Part shown: positions 3,265-24,535 of the stretch, piece after piece
Layout: each line of letters begins with the position of its first letter
How positions within the stretch are numbered: the first letter of the stretch is position 1
Virus record (IMG/VR): IMGVR_UViG_3300032050_015755
Location: 1-24,535 of that record
Direction: 5' to 3' (one strand)
DNA length: 24,535 nucleotides
DNA from: a virus
The notes under the pieces: generated by a model
What the model was told of the DNA's origin: nothing
What the model saw: the letters and a program-made list of their open reading frames with translations, nothing else
Database searches by the model: none
Made by a program: the position numbers and the translations under genes

Positions 3265-3597
3265 TTAGTCCCAAGTAAACAAAAGGGGCATTTCCTCTAC
3301 GGCATCCGATGATTTGGGATGAATTGATGCCTCGGGGTGCTCATGTTTCCAAATAATGAGCATTCGCTCTGCCTCTGTTTTATTGGTATAGGGTATCCAT
3401 ATGTGGACTAATCCATTTTGGGTTAGTTCAACTTTGAGAGGTTCGTTATTTAAGGTTATCATTTCGAATTTTACCAAATGGATATCGAAAGTGCTCCAAA
3501 GTCGAACACACCAAATAGTATCGGGGGTGGGCGAGTTCTGTTGCCCCACCATAGTAAAGTTTAAAACTAAACACACGCTTAAAATTAAATATCGCAT
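3265..3597 (-). CDS. Small secreted protein with signal peptide (110 aa)
   Basis: Starts MRYLILSVCLVLNFTMVGQQ, a typical Sec signal peptide, so the product should be exported to the periplasm. No lipobox Cys is present at the cleavage site. The mature part (about 90 aa) has no known motif. An in-frame ATG exists 14 codons upstream, but that stretch lies in a terminator hairpin (3624-3653) and would spoil the signal peptide, so the start at 3597 is preferred. A phage-encoded exported protein could act in lysis, superinfection exclusion or envelope change; none is shown by sequence. Confidence 0.72.
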   Translation of the reverse strand: MRYLILSVCLVLNFTMVGQQNSPTPDTIWCVRLWSTFDIHLVKFEMITLNNEPLKVELTQNGLVHIWIPYTNKTEAERMLIIWKHEHPEASIHPKSSDAVEEMPLLFTWD

Positions 3598-3623
3598 TAG
3601 GTTTGGTTTTGGGTTAAAAGAAA

Positions 3624-13144: not shown

Positions 13145-13957
13145 TTAAATGGGTAAGTTTACTTTGGTTAATAATTGATTAGATACATGGGTATAAATCT
13201 CGGTTGTCTTAACGTTTGAGTGACCTGCAATTTTTTGAATGATTCGCAAGTCTGTTCCAGACTCCAATAAGGTGGTAAAACATGAGTGTCTTAGTGTATG
13301 TATCGAGGAGTTGGGGTCAATGTACTTTTTGAAAATTGATTGGCACGAAGCTATTGAGTATTGGTCTGAGTCTTGTCCGCTGAAAAGATAAGTGGTAGGT
13401 TTATATTTTTTATAGTAATTTCTAAGCATCTCCAAAACTGTTTGGGATAGTGGGACAATTCTATCCTTTTTACCCTTGGCGTTTTTGATGTGAATTATCA
13501 TTCTCTTAGAGTCAATGTCCTCAATTTTTAAATTGGTTACCTCAGATACCCGTAACCCAACGGAATACGTTAACGTTAGGATTGTTTTATGTTTTATATT
13601 TTCTATTTTATCCAATTGTGTTTTTATAAAACTACTATCTATAACTCTCGGTAGTTTTTTTTCCTTTTTGGGTCTTTTGAAACTAACCTTATCATATTTT
13701 TTGTTCAGTCCGAATTTGTAGAGGAATCGGATTGAGTTAATGACTTGGTTTTGTTGGGAGGTGGATGTGAATTGGTAATCATCTAAATATGATTGAAAGT
13801 CCGCAGCTGAAAGGTGGACTGCTGATTTAGTTTGTTGGTTCAAGAACTTTCTGATGTGCGAAAGGTAGTTATTAGAGGTTCTTTTTGAATAATTTAGATA
13901 GTTAAGTTTTTGTTCGCAAATCTTTAATGTTGTGAGTCCTTTCTCGTTCATTTTCAA
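13145..13957 (-). CDS. Tyrosine recombinase (270 aa)
   Basis: XerC/D-type site-specific recombinase. N-terminal SAM-like DNA-binding domain (about 5-85) and catalytic domain with the full set of active residues: Arg136 (YSVGLRVSE), Lys163/164 (KGKKDR), His220 and Arg223 (HTLRH), His246 (AGHSN), nucleophile Tyr255 (EIYTH). Length is short and the extra segment that marks integron integrases between the Lys and HxxR regions is absent. It lies at the 3' end of an array of small genes separated by attC-like palindromes, all reading towards it, so it is the obvious candidate to move them; that link is inference. It could instead be an unrelated phage or transposon recombinase. Confidence 0.95.
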   Translation of the reverse strand: MKMNEKGLTTLKICEQKLNYLNYSKRTSNNYLSHIRKFLNQQTKSAVHLSAADFQSYLDDYQFTSTSQQNQVINSIRFLYKFGLNKKYDKVSFKRPKKEKKLPRVIDSSFIKTQLDKIENIKHKTILTLTYSVGLRVSEVTNLKIEDIDSKRMIIHIKNAKGKKDRIVPLSQTVLEMLRNYYKKYKPTTYLFSGQDSDQYSIASCQSIFKKYIDPNSSIHTLRHSCFTTLLESGTDLRIIQKIAGHSNVKTTEIYTHVSNQLLTKVNLPI

Positions 13958-13987
13958 TGATTTAAGGGTTATTAGATATATATATTA

Positions 13988-13994
13988 GTTAGGT
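13988..13994. other. Core-like heptamer near recombinase gene
   Basis: GTTAGGT, fitting the integron core GTTRRRY (ACCTAAC on the coding strand), sits between the first cassette-like gene and the recombinase, next to a TA-repeat. No partner half is seen, so it may be a relic or an attI-like site. A heptamer alone is weak evidence. Confidence 0.3.
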
Positions 13995-14003
13995 TCAATT
14001 AAA

Positions 14004-14198
14004 TTATTGTTTTGAGTTTTTTATTGGTATGGTAAATCTAACCGCACCAGTTATTTCACTCAATTCTCTATCGCTTATTGTCATCATACTATCATCACTA
14101 CTCTTTCCATATTTGCGTTCTTTGGTTTCTTGAAATAACTTCTGTTTTTCATCAGTCCACTCGGATTTCCAATCTTCAATGTTTTTGTAAATTTTCAT
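14004..14198 (-). CDS. Cassette-like small protein (64 aa)
   Basis: Not recognised. Starts MKIYKNIEDWKSEWTDEKQK, a charged helical protein. AT-rich and low in the G-runs typical of the phage genes to its left. Bounded upstream by the attC-like site at 14238-14291 and downstream by the core-like heptamer at 13988. Confidence 0.68.
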   Translation of the reverse strand: MKIYKNIEDWKSEWTDEKQKLFQETKERKYGKSSDDSMMTISDRELSEITGAVRFTIPIKNSKQ

Positions 14199-14237
14199 AT
14201 CTATATTTTTTTATTTGTAAAACAATAATTTAACTAA

Positions 14238-14291
14238 ACCTAACAAATGATAAACAACATTAAAACGATTTTTTATCATCGGACGTTAGGC
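14238..14291 (-). repeat. attC-like site 1 (54 bp)
   Basis: Outer cores ACCTAAC (14238-14244) and GTTAGGC (14285-14291) fit RYYYAAC / GTTRRRY and pair over six bases. Inner arms ATGATAAA (14247-14254) and TTTATCAT (14272-14279) pair perfectly; unequal spacers (2 and 5 nt) lie between, as in integron attC sites. 14241-14262 is identical to 20844-20865. Confidence 0.65.
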
Positions 14292-14304
14292 ACAATACAA
14301 GTAT

Positions 14305-14511
14305 CTACACCCAATCACGTACAAGTAAAAAAGAATTTTTAACTCCTTCCGATTCACTTTCAAATATTGGCAAACAAGTTTCAGTATCGCTCCATATTTC
14401 ACCATCCCATGCCCAATCATATTTATTTTCACAATGTGGGCATTTACCTCTCACGTCCCATTCTGCTTCAAATTCTTTTTTACATTTATGGCATTCAATA
14501 TCTACTTTCAT
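14305..14511 (-). CDS. Zinc-ribbon small protein (68 aa)
   Basis: Residues 1-30 carry two CxxC pairs (CHKC and CPHC, 18 residues between) in the pattern of a zinc ribbon, followed by a Trp-rich acidic part (KYDWAWDGEIW). Such proteins bind metal and often nucleic acid or protein; the role is unknown. An upstream TTG would extend the frame into the attC-like site, so the ATG at 14511 is chosen. Flanked on both sides by attC-like sites: the clearest single-gene cassette of the array. Confidence 0.75.
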   Translation of the reverse strand: MKVDIECHKCKKEFEAEWDVRGKCPHCENKYDWAWDGEIWSDTETCLPIFESESEGVKNSFLLVRDWV

Positions 14512-14525
14512 AATAAATGAACTGT

Positions 14526-14619
14526 GCCTAACAAGCAATATAAAACAGTTGCCATTAGGCTTATTACTAAATTTGAAACGTCTTATTAGGCAACCGTTTC
14601 ATATTGCCAACCGTTAGCA
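14526..14619 (-). repeat. attC-like site 2 (94 bp)
   Basis: Cores GCCTAAC (14526-14532) and GTTAGCA (14613-14619). Inner arms of 19 nt (14535-14553 and 14589-14607) pair at 17 of 19 positions; both mismatches become G-T/G-U pairs on the coding strand. It sits between the stop of the methyltransferase and the start of the zinc-ribbon gene. Confidence 0.68.
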
Positions 14620-14625
14620 GTAATA

Positions 14626-15522
14626 CTACATCCCATCTCCGAATGAAGTTACTACGTTAAATTCTTTTTCTTTTCTTTTTTCTTCCACCCTCTTTAAAGA
14701 AATATTAAAATAATCCATATTGTTCTCAATTCCAATAAAATTTCTGTTGGTGTATATACAAGCAATTCCTGTTGTCATTGAACCACCAAACATATCTAAA
14801 ACAGTTTGATGTTCTTTTGTGAAAGTCCTTATTAAGTTTTCCATTAGTTTTAATGGCTTTTGAGTTTCGTGCAATTTGTCTGAAATATGTGAACTTTCTT
14901 CAATTAAATTGGTTTTATAAATTTCAGAACAAAAAGTACCTGTACCATACTTCAAATAACAATCTGTAATAGTTCCACCAATCTTATATGGTTTAAACAT
15001 ATATACAATTGGCTCTACTATTGGTGCTAAATTACCCAATCGTCTATTGTCGCTATAATCTGAATTTCTCTTACCTATTACTTGACCTATTCTTTGTGCT
15101 TTAAATGGTGCTTTTTTCTTATTCCAACTAATTACATCTTTTAATATTAGACCGCTATTTTCTCCTGCAACCGTAAACCTGTGCTGATATTGCCTTCCTG
15201 TAAAACATAATATTGGCGATGCAGGTTTCATTATTCTACAACACTCTTTTAAAAAACTTTCGCAAAATATTTGAAATTCAATACTTATTTGCTTGTCTTT
15301 ATCACTCCACCCATTTTTAGGCTTACCTCTACTTTTAAACATTTTACTCTTTTGTTGTGCAGGAGAGCTTCCTAATAATGCACTATTGGTATTAGAATGT
15401 TTAATATCCCAATCACTAAATGAAATTCCATAGGGAATATCTGAAATTATCGCATCAATACTTTCGTCAGGTATTAACTTCATCTGCTCTATTGCATCTC
15501 CGTATCTTAAATCTATTGTCAT
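14626..15522 (-). CDS. Orphan DNA methyltransferase, N6-A or N4-C type (298 aa)
   Basis: Motif IV appears as SDIPYG (27-32), a known variant of DPPY, near the N-terminus; motif X-like HETQKPLKLMENLI (218-231), motif I DMFGGSMTTG (243-252) and motif II FIGIE (262-266) follow, an order fitting beta-class amino-methyltransferases. It should methylate adenine or cytosine in a specific site using S-adenosylmethionine. No restriction enzyme lies next to it, so a role in shielding phage DNA or marking host DNA is more likely than a full restriction system. It is the only large gene in the cassette array and has attC-like sites on both sides, though about 90 bp separate its start from site 3. Confidence 0.9.
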   Translation of the reverse strand: MTIDLRYGDAIEQMKLIPDESIDAIISDIPYGISFSDWDIKHSNTNSALLGSSPAQQKSKMFKSRGKPKNGWSDKDKQISIEFQIFCESFLKECCRIMKPASPILCFTGRQYQHRFTVAGENSGLILKDVISWNKKKAPFKAQRIGQVIGKRNSDYSDNRRLGNLAPIVEPIVYMFKPYKIGGTITDCYLKYGTGTFCSEIYKTNLIEESSHISDKLHETQKPLKLMENLIRTFTKEHQTVLDMFGGSMTTGIACIYTNRNFIGIENNMDYFNISLKRVEEKRKEKEFNVVTSFGDGM

Positions 15523-15612
15523 ATTTTTATTTTAATATTTTCCCACCGCACAAAAAGAAAAGAAAAAGGTTCAGTTCTTCGATTGAGTATTTGTGGTTTA
15601 AATCCGTACTAC

Positions 15613-15706
15613 TGCTAACAGCGTATATAAGAAATGGCACATCAGTATTTGTGCTAAATTTCAACATTCTACAAGTGCCACTTCTCATATACGCAAAACG
15701 TTATAA
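15613..15706 (-). repeat. attC-like site 3 (94 bp)
   Basis: Cores TGCTAAC (15613-15619) and GTTATAA (15700-15706). Inner arms of 20 nt (15621-15640 and 15675-15694) pair at 18 of 20; both mismatches are again G-T/G-U on the coding strand. Same total length as site 2 though the arm sequence differs. The outer core overlaps the stop codon of the gene at 15701. Confidence 0.66.
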
Positions 15707-15952
15707 AACATAATACTTCCTGCACCAATTTGGAATTTGTGATACTTTAGTTAAATCCTTTTCATCGCATATTTTTCTGCCAATCCATGTACAATGGTAT
15801 CCAGTATAATCTTCATCATCACTTTTACCATAAGGATTTAACTTACAATAAACACATTCTAAACAACTTCCAATAGTATTACGTTTTATAACATCAGATA
15901 TATGTAATTTTTTATCTGTGTCAAGGTCTGTACTCTTATTATTGTTTTCCAT
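15701..15952 (-). CDS. Cassette-like Cys-rich protein (83 aa)
   Basis: Not recognised. Six Cys, arranged CLECVYC, later HCTW, KICDEKD and WCRKY, suggest a metal-bound fold. Starts MENNNKSTDLDTDKKLHISD with an unstructured head. The stop codon lies inside the core of attC-like site 3, a compact cassette arrangement. Confidence 0.7.
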   Translation of the reverse strand: MENNNKSTDLDTDKKLHISDVIKRNTIGSCLECVYCKLNPYGKSDDEDYTGYHCTWIGRKICDEKDLTKVSQIPNWCRKYYVL

Positions 15953-16027
15953 ATTATTTAAGTTTTGCGTTTCAATTTAAGAAAAAAACTACACATATCT
16001 GAGTATCGTTATAGGTAATAAAAATTA

Positions 16028-16607: not shown

Positions 16608-16644
16608 GTTGGCGTTGGGGTGAGTGCCCCCTAAAACGTTATAA
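16608..16644 (-). repeat. Truncated attC-like hairpin
   Basis: CGTTGGGG (16613-16620), a 6-nt loop and CCCC followed by a near-match to AACG; the CGTTATAA core at 16637-16644 matches the one in site 3. The far core is missing, so it seems a degraded or short form. Confidence 0.45.
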
Positions 16645-16659
16645 GTAATAAAACAAAAA

Positions 16660-16959
16660 TTATTGACTTAATCTATTAAACAATTCTTCATCAATGATAA
16701 TGTTGTTGATTATCTTTGGGTCACCCGTCACCTCTTCGGTTAAGTATTCGTGAGCTAACTGATTAACTACTATATACTCAGTATCAATATCTGAATAGTG
16801 AATGTGCTCAAAAGCTTTTTCAAGTTCCAATTTATCCTCTAAGGTTGGGACTATAATTTTATATTTAGTCCATTTCACTTTTTTCATTTCTTCTTTGGTG
16901 AGGTAATCAGTTTTATTATCCTCATTCTTGAAGTCATCGAATCGTTTCATTACTTCCAT
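16660..16959 (-). CDS. Cassette-like hypothetical protein (99 aa)
   Basis: Not recognised. Starts MEVMKRFDDFKNEDNKTDYL (a second ATG at codon 4). Segment KYKIIVPTLEDKLELEKAFE followed by DTEYIVVNQLAHEYL looks like a small alpha/beta fold. The stop is followed after 18 nt by the CGTTA of the truncated hairpin. Confidence 0.68.
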   Translation of the reverse strand: MEVMKRFDDFKNEDNKTDYLTKEEMKKVKWTKYKIIVPTLEDKLELEKAFEHIHYSDIDTEYIVVNQLAHEYLTEEVTGDPKIINNIIIDEELFNRLSQ

Positions 16960-16987
16960 GTGTTTTATATTTAACCGTTAGTTGCAA

Positions 16988-20289: not shown

Positions 20290-20511
20290 TTATGGTTTTA
20301 GATTATAAATTCGGTGTAAAATTTCTTCGTTGGTTTGATAATCCACCGACCGAACATCATCCCCAATTAGGGCATCTATCCGCCCTAATTGATATGCACG
20401 CTCATGTAAAGTATCCGCATACTCAACCTTAGGGTTACTGCGAAGTTCGTCCCCAAACCCCACCATATAAAGGTCTAATAAAAATTCATCTTTTGGTTGC
20501 ATAAGTTTCAA
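20290..20511 (-). CDS. Hypothetical protein (73 aa)
   Basis: Not recognised. Starts MKLMQPKDEFLLDLYMVGFG with a helix-rich body (DTLHERAYQLGRIDALIGDD). ATG at codon 4 is an alternative start. Five bp before the lipoprotein start. Confidence 0.72.
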   Translation of the reverse strand: MKLMQPKDEFLLDLYMVGFGDELRSNPKVEYADTLHERAYQLGRIDALIGDDVRSVDYQTNEEILHRIYNLKP

Positions 20512-20545
20512 TTGGGTAATTATCAGAAAAGAGTTTTGGGTTGGG

Positions 20546-20562
20546 TATCATCGAGCGTTATG
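20546..20562 (-). repeat. Half attC-like site (gene-proximal half)
   Basis: Matches 14 of 17 bases of 14274-14290 (one end of attC-like site 1). It lies 7 bp after the stop of the gene at 20569. The partner half lies on the other side of the gene (20842-20865); the outer core reads CATAAC here and GTTATG there, so they are complementary. Confidence 0.6.
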
Positions 20563-20568
20563 TGTAAT

Positions 20569-20814
20569 TTATCTTAACACAAAATCAAAATATTTATCCG
20601 ACATTAAATTAATATCGGTAAAGTTTGAATACCATCCGTTATTGAATACGATATAAAGTTCTGTACCATCTTCGAATGTTTGTTTATATAAATCATATTC
20701 AGTTCCTTTTTGAAACTCCCATGACATATCGTATTCATCTGACCGAGTACATAAAACTTTACCTACCAATTCAACTTCCCTATCTGTCGCTTCTTCTAAT
20801 AATCTTATTTTCAT
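20569..20814 (-). CDS. Cassette-like hypothetical protein (81 aa)
   Basis: Not recognised. Starts MKIRLLEEATDREVELVGKV; the second half is rich in Tyr, Phe, Asp and Asn (NNGWYSNFTDINLMS). An upstream in-frame start lies within the flanking half-site region, so ATG 20814 is chosen. Bracketed by the two halves of an attC-like site. Confidence 0.7.
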   Translation of the reverse strand: MKIRLLEEATDREVELVGKVLCTRSDEYDMSWEFQKGTEYDLYKQTFEDGTELYIVFNNGWYSNFTDINLMSDKYFDFVLR

Positions 20815-20841
20815 ATATTTTGATTTTGTTAATAAACTACG

Positions 20842-20865
20842 CATAACAAATGATAAACAACATTA
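20842..20865 (-). repeat. Half attC-like site (start-proximal half)
   Basis: Bases 20844-20865 are identical to 14241-14262 in attC-like site 1 (22 nt). It lies between the stop at 20870 and the start at 20814. Confidence 0.65.
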
Positions 20866-20869
20866 GCAA

Positions 20870-21082
20870 CTATAATTGGCTTAAAAAAGCATCTCGCAAT
20901 AGAGATTTAGGTCTTGGGTTTTCGTACAATTCTTTCATTTTATCACAATATTGGTCATAAGCCAATAACAGTTCCCTTTGGTTGCTAACACTATGTAAAT
21001 CCAATAAAATTTTATCGGCTTCATCTTTTGTTAGTGTTCCTTGCATTAATAATCTTGTTGTTTCCTCAATTGTCTTTTTCAT
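20870..21082 (-). CDS. Cassette-like small helical protein (70 aa)
   Basis: Not recognised. Starts MKKTIEETTRLLMQGTLTKD; helical throughout (DEADKILLDLHSVSNQ). The stop is followed directly by a half attC-like site. Confidence 0.68.
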   Translation of the reverse strand: MKKTIEETTRLLMQGTLTKDEADKILLDLHSVSNQRELLLAYDQYCDKMKELYENPRPKSLLRDAFLSQL

Positions 21083-21127
21083 AATATAAAATTTAACTGT
21101 ATTTACATTTATCCGTTATATGTCATT

Positions 21128-22008: not shown

Positions 22009-22797
22009 TTAATTGGAGAGGGGTGCTTTAATTGATGGGTGCGATTGATATCCGACCATTTGAAAATCTTCTATTTGCATATTTTGGATTAAAAAATCTA
22101 TATCGCTGACAAGATTCCCGATTCCACATTCACCACTTTCGGTGGGCCAGAATTCGGTATTGATTTCAAGTTTGGGTAAAGGGTATGGTTCTCTCGGGAT
22201 GACCCTTGGTATATTCCATTGGTCACACTCGGAATGGGATAGTGATTCGGGACTACCCCCATTATAGATTTGGTTAAACATTTCTTGAGATACCATTGCT
22301 CTCCTTTCTTCTAAATCCAATTCTCTACTAATTTGTAGTTTGGCCTGGTCAATATGATTTTTGTAAAGGTGAGTATCACCCAAGTTACCAATCAGTTCAT
22401 CAGGAATCATATTAACCGCCTTTGCAATGATTTCCAGCAGTAAGCCGTAAGAAGCAATATTGAATGGTAAACCTAAAAAAGTATCGCAGCTGCGTTGATT
22501 CCACATTAAAGAGATTGCTCTGGTTGGGATGTTAAATGCTTTACAGTCTTGTAATGTCTCTCTTTCAAATTCTTCACCACTAAAACAATTTTCTCTTTTA
22601 TGGCTTCTATTTGTTTTTTTGTTTAGTAGGTCGTTTCTCTCATCCAAACTCAACTCTCTTGTATAAAATTGAAATCCGTAATGACAAGGCGGGAGAACTT
22701 GCTTCCCTTCTGTGATATGTTTTCGGCCATATTTGTTATTAAAATTTCTATCAGTTTTTAGTTTTTCTAAAAACTCTTCTTTAGTTAGCGGATTCAT
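22009..22797 (-). CDS. thyA: Thymidylate synthase, C-terminal piece with catalytic Cys (262 aa)
   Basis: Carries the second half of the ThyA fold: PPCH with nucleophile Cys38, QRSCD (101-105), GLPFNIASY (109-117) and GDTHLYKNH (140-148), then the PLPKL and HPSIKAP motifs near the end. It lacks the N-terminal half ([17 protein letters not shown]), which is encoded separately at 23725-24354. Residues 1-34 before LPPCH are extra compared with usual ThyA, as are loops at about 50-95 and 160-200. Its ATG overlaps the stop of the endonuclease gene by 17 bp in another frame, suggesting coupled but separate translation. The two halves would have to assemble to make dTMP from dUMP and methylene-tetrahydrofolate. 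Confidence 0.93.
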   Translation of the reverse strand: MNPLTKEEFLEKLKTDRNFNNKYGRKHITEGKQVLPPCHYGFQFYTRELSLDERNDLLNKKTNRSHKRENCFSGEEFERETLQDCKAFNIPTRAISLMWNQRSCDTFLGLPFNIASYGLLLEIIAKAVNMIPDELIGNLGDTHLYKNHIDQAKLQISRELDLEERRAMVSQEMFNQIYNGGSPESLSHSECDQWNIPRVIPREPYPLPKLEINTEFWPTESGECGIGNLVSDIDFLIQNMQIEDFQMVGYQSHPSIKAPLSN

Positions 22798-23671
22798 ATA
22801 GTTTGTAATTTACGTATTTGACATTTTTTGATTTGATTCTATTTCTTAGTGTTGACATATTTAACCCAGTCTTAACTGAAGCATCAGATAGACTTTCATA
22901 GACGATTCCTTCAACTTCTACGCTTACCATATTTCCTGGTTTCTTGCCTTTATTTGCTTCACTAAGTTTTCTTTTCGTCTCTTCGGATTTAGGTTTTTTA
23001 TTAGCTTCAGATATTCTCTGTTTTACTTCATCAGTATGCGTTTTGCCTTTCATTGGATTATTTCGTTTCATCCAGTCTGAATGATTAGTATTATCCTTTC
23101 CTTTCCAATAACCTTCTTTACCTTTATTTGATTTGCTTATTTTATCATTAATGCTATTTCTTTCTTCTTCTGTTAAATTTTCATGCCATTTTTTTTTAGC
23201 TTCTGACATTTTAATTTTTGAATCACCATTGCGTTTTTTTCCAAAGTTTGGACTGTTTTCACCTTTATATTTTCCAACAAAAGAATCTTTCCATCTTTCT
23301 ATTTCATCTTCACTCTTCTTTCTACCTCTAGTTGGATTGTTTTCTTGCATCCACTCTGAATGTTTTTGCCTAATTAAATCTTTATTTGGATGATTTGAAA
23401 TAGTGTCTCCTCCATTTCCGCCTAAAGCTATATTGTAACCAAAGCTTCTATTTGTTGAATCATAAAAACTTATCCAGTACTTTTCTCTTTCATTTAAATC
23501 TTCTACCGATTCGCATACTTCAAGAATTTCTTTATTAAAATTTTCAAGTCCGTACTTCTGAAAAGCAAGATGTAAAATTTTACCGCTCCCTAAATATGCT
23601 GGATTGTTGTTTTTGTCTCGTCCTATGTAAATTTTGCCATTCGCTAGATTTGTAGTTTTATAGATAATCAT
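22781..23671 (-). CDS. GIY-YIG homing endonuclease with NUMOD3/NUMOD1 repeats (296 aa)
   Basis: Residues 1-90 are a GIY-YIG nuclease: IYKTTNLANGKIYIGRD with the YIG triplet at 15-17, the following Arg, and Glu in NEREKYW (61-65). Residues about 130-245 hold several NUMOD3-type motifs (NNPMKGKTHTDEVKQRISEA; SEETKRKLSEANKGKK), and 250-290 a NUMOD1-type motif (YESLSDASVKTG, STLRNRI) for DNA binding. It should cut an intact thyA allele and copy itself in. Only 53 bp separate it from the upstream thyA piece and it overlaps the downstream piece. Same family as the T4 td intron nuclease I-TevI, but here without intron space. Confidence 0.95.
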   Translation of the reverse strand: MIIYKTTNLANGKIYIGRDKNNNPAYLGSGKILHLAFQKYGLENFNKEILEVCESVEDLNEREKYWISFYDSTNRSFGYNIALGGNGGDTISNHPNKDLIRQKHSEWMQENNPTRGRKKSEDEIERWKDSFVGKYKGENSPNFGKKRNGDSKIKMSEAKKKWHENLTEEERNSINDKISKSNKGKEGYWKGKDNTNHSDWMKRNNPMKGKTHTDEVKQRISEANKKPKSEETKRKLSEANKGKKPGNMVSVEVEGIVYESLSDASVKTGLNMSTLRNRIKSKNVKYVNYKLYESAN

Positions 23672-23724
23672 AATGGTATTACTTCCTTTTTATTTTATAT
23701 ATTCAAGGAAGCATTACAATTTTA

Positions 23725-24354
23725 TCACTTTTCAAAATCTTTTAGATAATCTTGGTAAAGTTCATCGTCGGTTCTATAATCAGTAACTGGCAAATCTGAC
23801 GGATTCCAAGCACTTACCATTAATCGTCTTGAGTCAGGATTTGTTTTAAGGTCACGGATTAAGTTTGCAATTTGGTCTATTGATTCTGATGAAATATACC
23901 ATTCATTATGTTCTTTACTTTCATCTTCAAATTTAGTCCAATTTCTCCATTGCTTACCATAAATTGGCCCAAGGTCGCCCCAAGTCTTAGCAAACTCATC
24001 ATCTGTTTTGATTTTGTCGATGAATTCTTCTTGTGTGAATGAATTTGGATAGATTCTACCATTGTTTATTTTTGATAAATAATTCTTATAAGCATCACCA
24101 TCCCAAATATGACAACCATTATCCACCAGGTATTTTATATTTGTTTCCCCCCTTAAAAACCAAAGTAATTCAACTACAATTCCTTTCCAATACATTTTTT
24201 TGGTATTAATGAGTGGAAAGCCATCACTCATCTTGTGACGGATTTGTCGACCAAATACGGATATAGTTCCCGTTCCCGTTCGGTCGCTTTTACTGACCCC
24301 ATTGTCCATTATGTCTTGGAGTAGTGCTTGATAGTCTTTATCTAGTTTGTTCAT
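23725..24354 (-). CDS. thyA: Thymidylate synthase, N-terminal piece (209 aa)
   Basis: Has the first half of Thy[14 protein letters not shown] (Arg25), [11 protein letters not shown] (62-72), [13 protein letters not shown] (125-137) and [12 protein letters not shown] (174-185). It ends with a 19-residue acidic tail ([19 protein letters not shown]) and a stop, just where usual ThyA would continue to the catalytic PPCH motif. That part is in 22009-22797, beyond the endonuclease gene. The upstream ORF overlaps its start by 17 bp, and its first 13 codons are repeated there. Not active alone by family knowledge; activity requires the other piece. Confidence 0.93.
24314..24339 (-). repeat. Direct repeat of thyA 5' end, thyA copy (26 bp)
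   Basis: Codons about 6-14 of the N-terminal thyA piece; identical to 24495-24520. Recombination between the copies would fuse or delete the upstream ORF. Confidence 0.85.
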
Positions 24355-24535
24355 TTTTGATTATTTTACTTCTTAAATCCTTAATTATTACATCCCAATT
24401 ATTAGCTTGTTCTGCGTTATATTTTATATCAAGTTTTTCGCCATAGGTTACTTTCATACTATAATGTTGAAAATTGTTTCTAGCCGTTTCGTATTCTTGG
24501 AGTAGTGCTTGATAGTCTTTGTCTATTTTATTCAT
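24338..24535 (-). CDS. Small ORF with duplicated ThyA N-terminus (65 aa, at window edge)
   Basis: Starts [20 protein letters not shown], sharing 12 of the first 13 residues with thyA, then differs into a charged helical protein ending [10 protein letters not shown]. Its start is the last three bases of the window, so it could extend further. It overlaps the thyA start by 17 bp. Either a small coupled leader gene that captured the thyA start, or the source of the thyA start; function unknown. Confidence 0.6.
24495..24520 (-). repeat. Direct repeat of thyA 5' end, upstream copy (26 bp)
   Basis: Identical over 26 bp to 24314-24339 inside thyA, with further near-identity to the ATG of each ORF. 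The copies are 181 bp apart in the same orientation. Confidence 0.85.

Follow-up and report, generated by a model that had tools for sequence, protein, structure and literature searches.

A putative gene cassette with a clipped attC-like site in a phage-borne, integron-like array linked to an insert-less integrase

The small gene at 20569-20814 of the window (the whole 24,535-nucleotide stretch of IMG/VR virus record IMGVR_UViG_3300032050_015755) very probably belongs, as an integrated cassette, to a phage-borne, integron-like system, with its own attC clipped and this copy probably locked. This reading draws on features apparent in the sequence: exact boundaries, an intact homologous cassette elsewhere, a deletion, core covariation, an attI-like box and the strand geometry.

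Cassette a and its clipped attC

The features around the gene are as follows.
20558-20862, no strand assigned: cassette a, from the TT after the crossover up to the clipped attC
20569-20814, minus strand: ORF of cassette a, 81 aa (91 aa if the upstream ATG at 20844 is used)
20544-20562, plus strand: left half-site, an L' arm and R' box G|TTATG with the crossover after G20557; the R''L'' arm is absent
20842-20865, plus strand: right half-site, what remains of the cassette a attC: R'' (CATAAC), L'' and some of the loop; L'R' is deleted
20863-21115, no strand assigned: cassette b, TTAGCAAC...GTTGCTAAC plus a hairpin, ending CCG|TTATATG; its ORF is 20870-21082 (minus strand)

The initial annotation described the gene as bracketed by the two halves of an attC-like site. 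Both half-sites lie where it had placed them, and its base matches and complementary cores were all reproduced. The left one (20546-20562, TATCATCGAGCGTTATG) agreed with the attC-like site called site 1 (TATCATCGGACGTTAGG) at 14 of 17 bases, and the right one (20844-20865) was identical to site 1 over 22 of 22 bases, with no further match in the window and a shuffle expectation of 0 (0.00). The core GTTATG at 20557 can pair with the core CATAAC at 20842; read inward, the cassette ends are GTTATGTGTAATTTATCTTAACACAAAATCAAAATAT and GTTATGCGTAGTTTATTAACAAAATCAAAATAT, and complementarity reaches past the core for about 35 bases. Alone, the left half-site is weakly above chance, as the window has 209 GTTA sites and 3 of them, including site 1, are equally similar upstream; it becomes significant because it falls exactly at the cassette boundary. 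It reads TATCATCG, keeps the 5-nt distance from GTTA of intact sites and matches the L' consensus at 9 of 13 positions. An automatic palindrome scan with exact six-base cores recovered site 1 amid mostly chance matches.

The ORF of cassette a had no match in Pfam, NCBIfam, PHROGs or PADLOC and belongs to no known family; its predicted structure was unusable (pLDDT 38). We found a single viral homolog, at a locus (L202) of another phage, with 86% amino acid identity. The two loci are 89% identical in nucleotide sequence, and this identity is limited to 20553/20556-20865, that is, CG|TTATG...CATAACAAATGATAAACAACATTA (CG|TTATG to CATTA). Otherwise they have only 121 bp of integrase start in common, and their flanks are unrelated. 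In L202 the attC-like hairpin is complete and the following cassette opens at G|TTAGG. The suggestion of a movable unit 6 kb away from the recombinase is thus borne out by another phage, in which the cassette has an intact attC and unrelated neighbors. We read the gene at 20.5 kb as a mobile gene cassette with exact boundaries; as an individual feature, cassette a is a decayed cassette. The weak significance of the left half-site by itself would suit an ordinary phage gene with fortuitous flanking repeats, but the chance expectation for the 22-mer and above all the exact homologous cassette in L202, which refutes this alternative, make it vanishingly improbable.

Two other parts of the initial annotation did not stand. 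It placed the unit's ends mid-site, so that circularizing would rebuild a full site; the L202 copy instead runs from G|TT through a complete attC. It had also taken unrelated flanks in homologous phages as evidence against mobility. A mobile cassette is expected to have exact G|TT boundaries and unrelated flanks, so that comparison was misdirected, and the unrelated flanks of L202 point the opposite way. The proposed search for relatives and empty sites yielded the one viral homolog but no empty site: ORF 20870-21082 had no viral relative, and the relatives of ORF 20290-20511 (L206-L216) were non-syntenic. L202 also holds, at 3484-3604 and in the surroundings, the beginning of an integrase gene, accompanied by an attI-like motif and interrupted by a cassette boundary, together with a second attI-like motif; these are integron relics adjoining the intact cassette copy.

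In the window, cassette a lacks 26 hairpin bases, from the loop TTA to the R' TTA, and the next cassette follows directly. After TTA, intact sites read AAACGATTGTTTATCATCGGACGTTA and the window reads CATTA|GCAACTATAATTGG, the expected product of a deletion between the loop TTA and the TTA of the next R' box; the GCAAC after the deletion point is part of cassette b. Clipped half-sites were rare among the matches listed, where L107 and L130, besides the window, lacked the L' arm, and the clipped hairpin may be a metagenomic assembly error at the deletion. We propose that a 26-bp deletion from the hairpin-loop TTA to the TTA of the next R' box clipped the cassette a attC and left R''L'', and that the site on the left would likewise be one arm short. 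The left half-site is probably the remnant of a preceding, different upstream attC, so the "two halves" are probably one clipped attC of cassette a next to a neighbor-site remnant, and not a circle opened at its site. With no complete attC on either flank, cassette a is probably locked in place.

The same order of parts, L'R'-gene-R''L'', would arise if a cassette circle had been opened within its attC hairpin, perhaps by a hairpin nuclease, and the resulting linear piece joined to the phage genome. The two breaks map to the hairpin apex or close to it, and loop-joined chimeric attCs (L184, L007, L099 and L118) show that apex exchanges occur. The ends also fold well when joined circle-wise, giving one hairpin (−9.8 kcal/mol, z −4.0), and either half by itself gave no fold. 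However, the right half runs into the start of cassette b rather than into unrelated phage DNA, the TTA overlap suits a simple deletion, and the L202 cassette has the ordinary form. We consider a joined linear piece improbable and favor the deletion.

Cassette b has matching cores, its far core GTTGCTAAC lying at 20981-20989, and its hairpin (20984-21120) has an 8-bp stem with spacers of 3 and 6 nt. The region 20546-21120 thus has a single complete hairpin, at 20984-21120, besides the clipped site at 20842-20865, and the integrase is 6 kb off; an integrase-less attC cluster (CALIN) is defined by two or more attC sites in a 4-kb span with no adjoining integrase. Cassette a would sit in a small second array, and we infer both the origin of that array and the present immobility of the cassette.

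Structure of the attC-like sites and covariation of their cores

The cassettes beside the integrase are listed below.
13989-14288, no strand assigned: cassette 1, ORF 14004-14198 (minus strand), intact attC 14239-14290
14289-14613, no strand assigned: cassette 2, ORF 14305-14538 (minus strand), zinc-ribbon-like; attC about 14526-14618, the site read by eye
14615-15699, no strand assigned: cassette 3, DNA methyltransferase 14626-15522 (minus strand), attC 15614-15705
15701-16007, no strand assigned: cassette 4, ORF 15701-15952 (minus strand) starting within the attC loop, attC 15887-16013
16637-16974, no strand assigned: cassette 6, ORF 16660-16959 (minus strand), attC wholly deleted in the window

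A strict finder located three full attC-like sites beside the recombinase (14239-14290, 15614-15705 and 15887-16013), compared with 0.175 sites in the shuffled window. Their architecture is NNTAAC, 1-2 nt, stem, loop, stem, 5 nt and CG|TTA. Since the finder requires an exact 8-bp stem, its attC counts fall short of a complete census. Cassette 6 is 93% identical to a cassette in L142 with an intact attC, making this the second attC loss in the window, and homologs of the methyltransferase cassette occur in L184 and L203 with different left flanks; both cassettes are found at other loci, bounded by G|TT and flanked differently. At sites 15887-16013 and 20984-21120, the ORF start codons are inside the attC loop, so that the gene overlaps its own recombination site.

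The 22-mer of site 1, a mark of the commonest attC, was present in at least 119 IMG/VR stretches, and nearly all matches listed continue with AAACGATTGTTTATCATCGGACGTTANNNNNAAT and so are full sites. In 84,980 bacterial and archaeal genomes it occurred three times, always in MAG contigs, and a looser attC pattern was absent from all 296 genomes from the phylum of a Lishizhenia MAG (Bacteroidota).

The initial annotation also claimed that the cores had changed together across the gene. The complementary cores of cassette a agree with this, and we observed the same trend over 185 adjacent site pairs: at the 8 positions after GTT, agreement was 5.44/8 across the gene and 3.35/8 within the hairpin, the shuffled value being 3.36/8 and the maximum of 200 shuffles 3.61. 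Cores that match across the gene and are random within the hairpin are the expectation for a crossover at G|TT; the hairpins would then join two cassettes, with each cassette bringing its own core pair. In 119 matched cassettes, the ends were complementary to about nucleotide 23. Position 11 was a fixed exception, where R' always has A, usually as an A.C mismatch with the R'' end.

At the level of sequence only, a crossover at G|TT of the R' box is indicated by the boundaries in L202, L184 and L142 together with the core covariation. We dropped the literal GTTRRRY core, as most R' boxes and cores read GTTAT. We also rejected a crossover at the other end of the hairpin, which would place the attC on the 3' side of the ORF: in L202 and L184 the attC travels on the R'' side, and in the cassette next to attI no hairpin separates attI from the gene.

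Arrays of this kind might instead arise by homologous recombination between identical attC-like repeats, with no site-specific step. Consistent with this, the type-I attC is nearly identical across more than 100 phage sites, and chimeric sites exist. However, cores that are uncorrelated within the hairpin but matched across the gene, boundaries that fall precisely on CG|TT where sites differ in their arms, and arrays that adjoin an integrase with a fixed strand geometry and an attI-like box all argue against it. We regard homologous recombination as very improbable and retain site-specific recombination at G|TT. The chimeric attCs of L184, L007, L099 and L118 each have the R''L'' arm of one type loop-joined to the L'R' of another.

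We then selected cassettes independently of their hairpins, from the attI box and core agreement. Of the 36 cassettes so selected, 23 had a stem of 7 bp or longer, compared with 8.4% of 513 control TAACs. The stems comprised many unrelated sequences, and the spacers were constant (1-2 and 5 nt). Varied stems with constant spacers are the pattern of a structure-recognized site; the fold is conserved and the sequence variable, as in the attC of integrons.

The integrase, its attI-like box and cassette polarity

Two features form the head of the array.
13145-13957, minus strand: tyrosine recombinase (integrase), six catalytic residues present, no IntI-specific insert
13966-13991, plus strand: attI-like box beside the integrase start, ATATATATATTAG|TTAGG

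The catalytic residues of the window integrase are R136, K164, H220, R223, H246 and Y255. From the catalytic K to HxLRH we counted 56 residues, and 55-57 in the phage clade, compared with 103 in 15 of 15 IntI and 62-72 in Xer proteins; the insert of roughly 47 residues that makes up the IntI-specific additional domain (I2 region) is absent. TIGR02249 scored 158 bits (cut-off 265) and TIGR02224/TIGR02225 (XerC/XerD) 147 bits (cut-offs 335/330), below the level of orthologs; the top NCBIfam score, also under its cut-off, came from the XerA/integron model NF040815. The 34 phage integrases form a single clade (100/99) that is separate from IntI, and they are not XerC/XerD orthologs either. A structure model of moderate quality (pLDDT 78, pTM 0.58) found its best fold matches in IntI4 (2a3v) and XerA, and is non-discriminating.

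The I2 insert or helix is reported to be needed for cassette capture, to confer single-strand recombination and to be restricted to integron integrases (PMC7790495), and its presence was part of the case for accepting archaeal integrons (PMC9668308). A survey of tyrosine recombinases reported that the insert is not fully conserved in an integron-like subgroup (PMC8138268); in our literature search, we found no paper linking insert-less members to attC arrays.

A box reading TAAC-TATNATATAT lies 30-50 nt before the integrase start codon, at the first cassette boundary, in most of the 29 loci inspected, and this conserved box would correspond to an attI adjoining the integrase gene. In nearly all integrase loci, the attC is opposite in strand to the integrase and upstream of it. 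Genome G008 (276 kb) has a five-site cluster with an attI-like box about 50 kb from its integrase array (L238, G008:240000-251000), where no integrase was detected; distant second arrays in other phages mean that the 6-kb distance in the window is not unique. Stretches with attC-like sites of the same type also occur in deposited huge-phage genomes of 462, 635 and 636 kb, with three hairpins within one region of the 635-kb phage, and a full integrase was not found in these three records. The arrays in the 462-kb and 635-kb environmental phage genomes are L250 and L252 (LR756500, LR745206).

We suggest that the integrase encoded at 13145-13957 takes up circular cassettes through a crossover at the R' box (G|TT), for which the attI-like box before its own gene and the attC-like hairpins on the cassettes would serve as sites. 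The linked integrase would thereby recombine a folded, single-stranded attC without I2. Alternatively, the integrase could be Xer-like and act on double-stranded sites, the hairpins being, for example, promoters or terminators of the antisense-oriented genes. The missing IntI insert is in keeping with this, as is the conservation of an R''-side leader plus attC ahead of many different genes. Stems that differ while pairing and spacers are kept would, however, be needless for a sequence-specific double-stranded site, and we hold such a mechanism to be unlikely, though much the most serious competitor to action on a folded attC. The stretch comprising start codon, leader and attC at 14192-14288 is conserved ahead of many different genes at about 60 loci, and leader plus attC behaves as if it were one module.

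In 119 cassettes, the longest ORF was antisense to the attC in 111 and sense in none; five were unclear and three had no ORF of 40 aa. The ORFs are thus not directed at their attC, as they are where the attC lies 3'. The attC belongs on the 5' side of the gene, since of the two flanking attCs in L202 and L184 only the one on that side moves along with the gene. ORFs antisense to the attC imply that the phage system has no Pc-style sense expression. A relaxed classical-attC finder, intended to check polarity at IntI loci, found sense and antisense equally often in both groups, and we set its output aside as noise.

Of the 296 Bacteroidota genomes sampled, 60 encoded integrases with about 40-47% identity. 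All 20 chromosomal relatives examined lacked the insert (56-62 residues). Several had attC-like sites downstream on the same strand, with cassettes longer than in phages. In L279, L284 and L289 the ORFs were sense and stopped 7-24 bp ahead of the site in 7 of 7 inspected, which provides an independent check on the orientation convention. This small sample suggests that the phage branch reversed cassette polarity. The chromosomal relative L292 has a CATTAAAACG loop in common with the phage sites.

Relation to known systems and further observations

The phage system shares with bacterial integrons the G|TT-bounded cassettes, the R''L''L'R' hairpins with unpaired spacers, the attI-like site at the integrase gene, and an array upstream of the integrase with the attC on the opposite strand. 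Unlike bacterial integrons, it is phage-borne, its integrase lacks the roughly 47-residue IntI insert and its attC sequence is nearly absent from bacterial genomes. It would be integron-like in its working, yet departs from integrons in two defining respects, the IntI insert and cassette polarity. The chromosomal relatives in Bacteroidota are also insert-less, but have downstream, same-strand arrays with sense ORFs. XerA, XerC/XerD and XerH resemble the phage integrase in length without the insert and differ in that the phage enzyme is linked to cassette arrays.

Integrons and CALINs have been described in phages, several of them recombined by IntI1, including lytic phages with attC cassettes (a DNA methyltransferase among them) and a Polaribacter phage (Qi et al., 2023; PMC9892861). 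The sites in those virulent phages have no integrase and recombined with IntI1 when tested, whereas here the arrays have their own integrase clade, attI-like box and attC family. On viral integrons and integrons in huge phages, our search (bioRxiv and subscription papers lay outside its scope) returned nothing relevant besides PMC9892861. We found no prior description of an integron variant with an insert-less phage integrase, although one may exist. Fused resistance cassettes with truncated or deleted attC, such as blaOXA-10/aadA1 and the aadA1 cassette of Tn1331 (PMC8876359), resemble cassette a in being fixed to a neighbor after attC loss; they differ in that cassette a belongs to a phage array of non-resistance genes.

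We see an even chance that a second kind of integron is at work in large, probably Bacteroidota, phages: an I2-less recombinase would act on folded attC at G|TT and shuffle small phage genes that face away from their attC and join phage transcription units. If so, together with the related insert-less chromosomal system, it would make I2 dispensable or replaced. A widespread clade of I2-less phage integrases with attC hairpins and an attI-like box would make the origin of integron recombination directly testable, and large phages would gain a dedicated exchange device for accessory genes such as methyltransferases and small unknown proteins. Cassette a would illustrate the fixation of a cassette through loss of one hairpin arm.

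Further along the window, a thymidylate synthase gene (22009-24354) is split into an N-terminal part at 23725-24354 and a C-terminal part at 22009-22797, with no Rfam intron match at the split gene. The ORF between the two parts (22781-23671) is, by eye, GIY-YIG homing endonuclease-like (compare phage td introns). At 24314-24535, two adjacent ORFs have near-identical protein starts, which derive from a 41-bp direct repeat (24314-24354 and 24495-24535).
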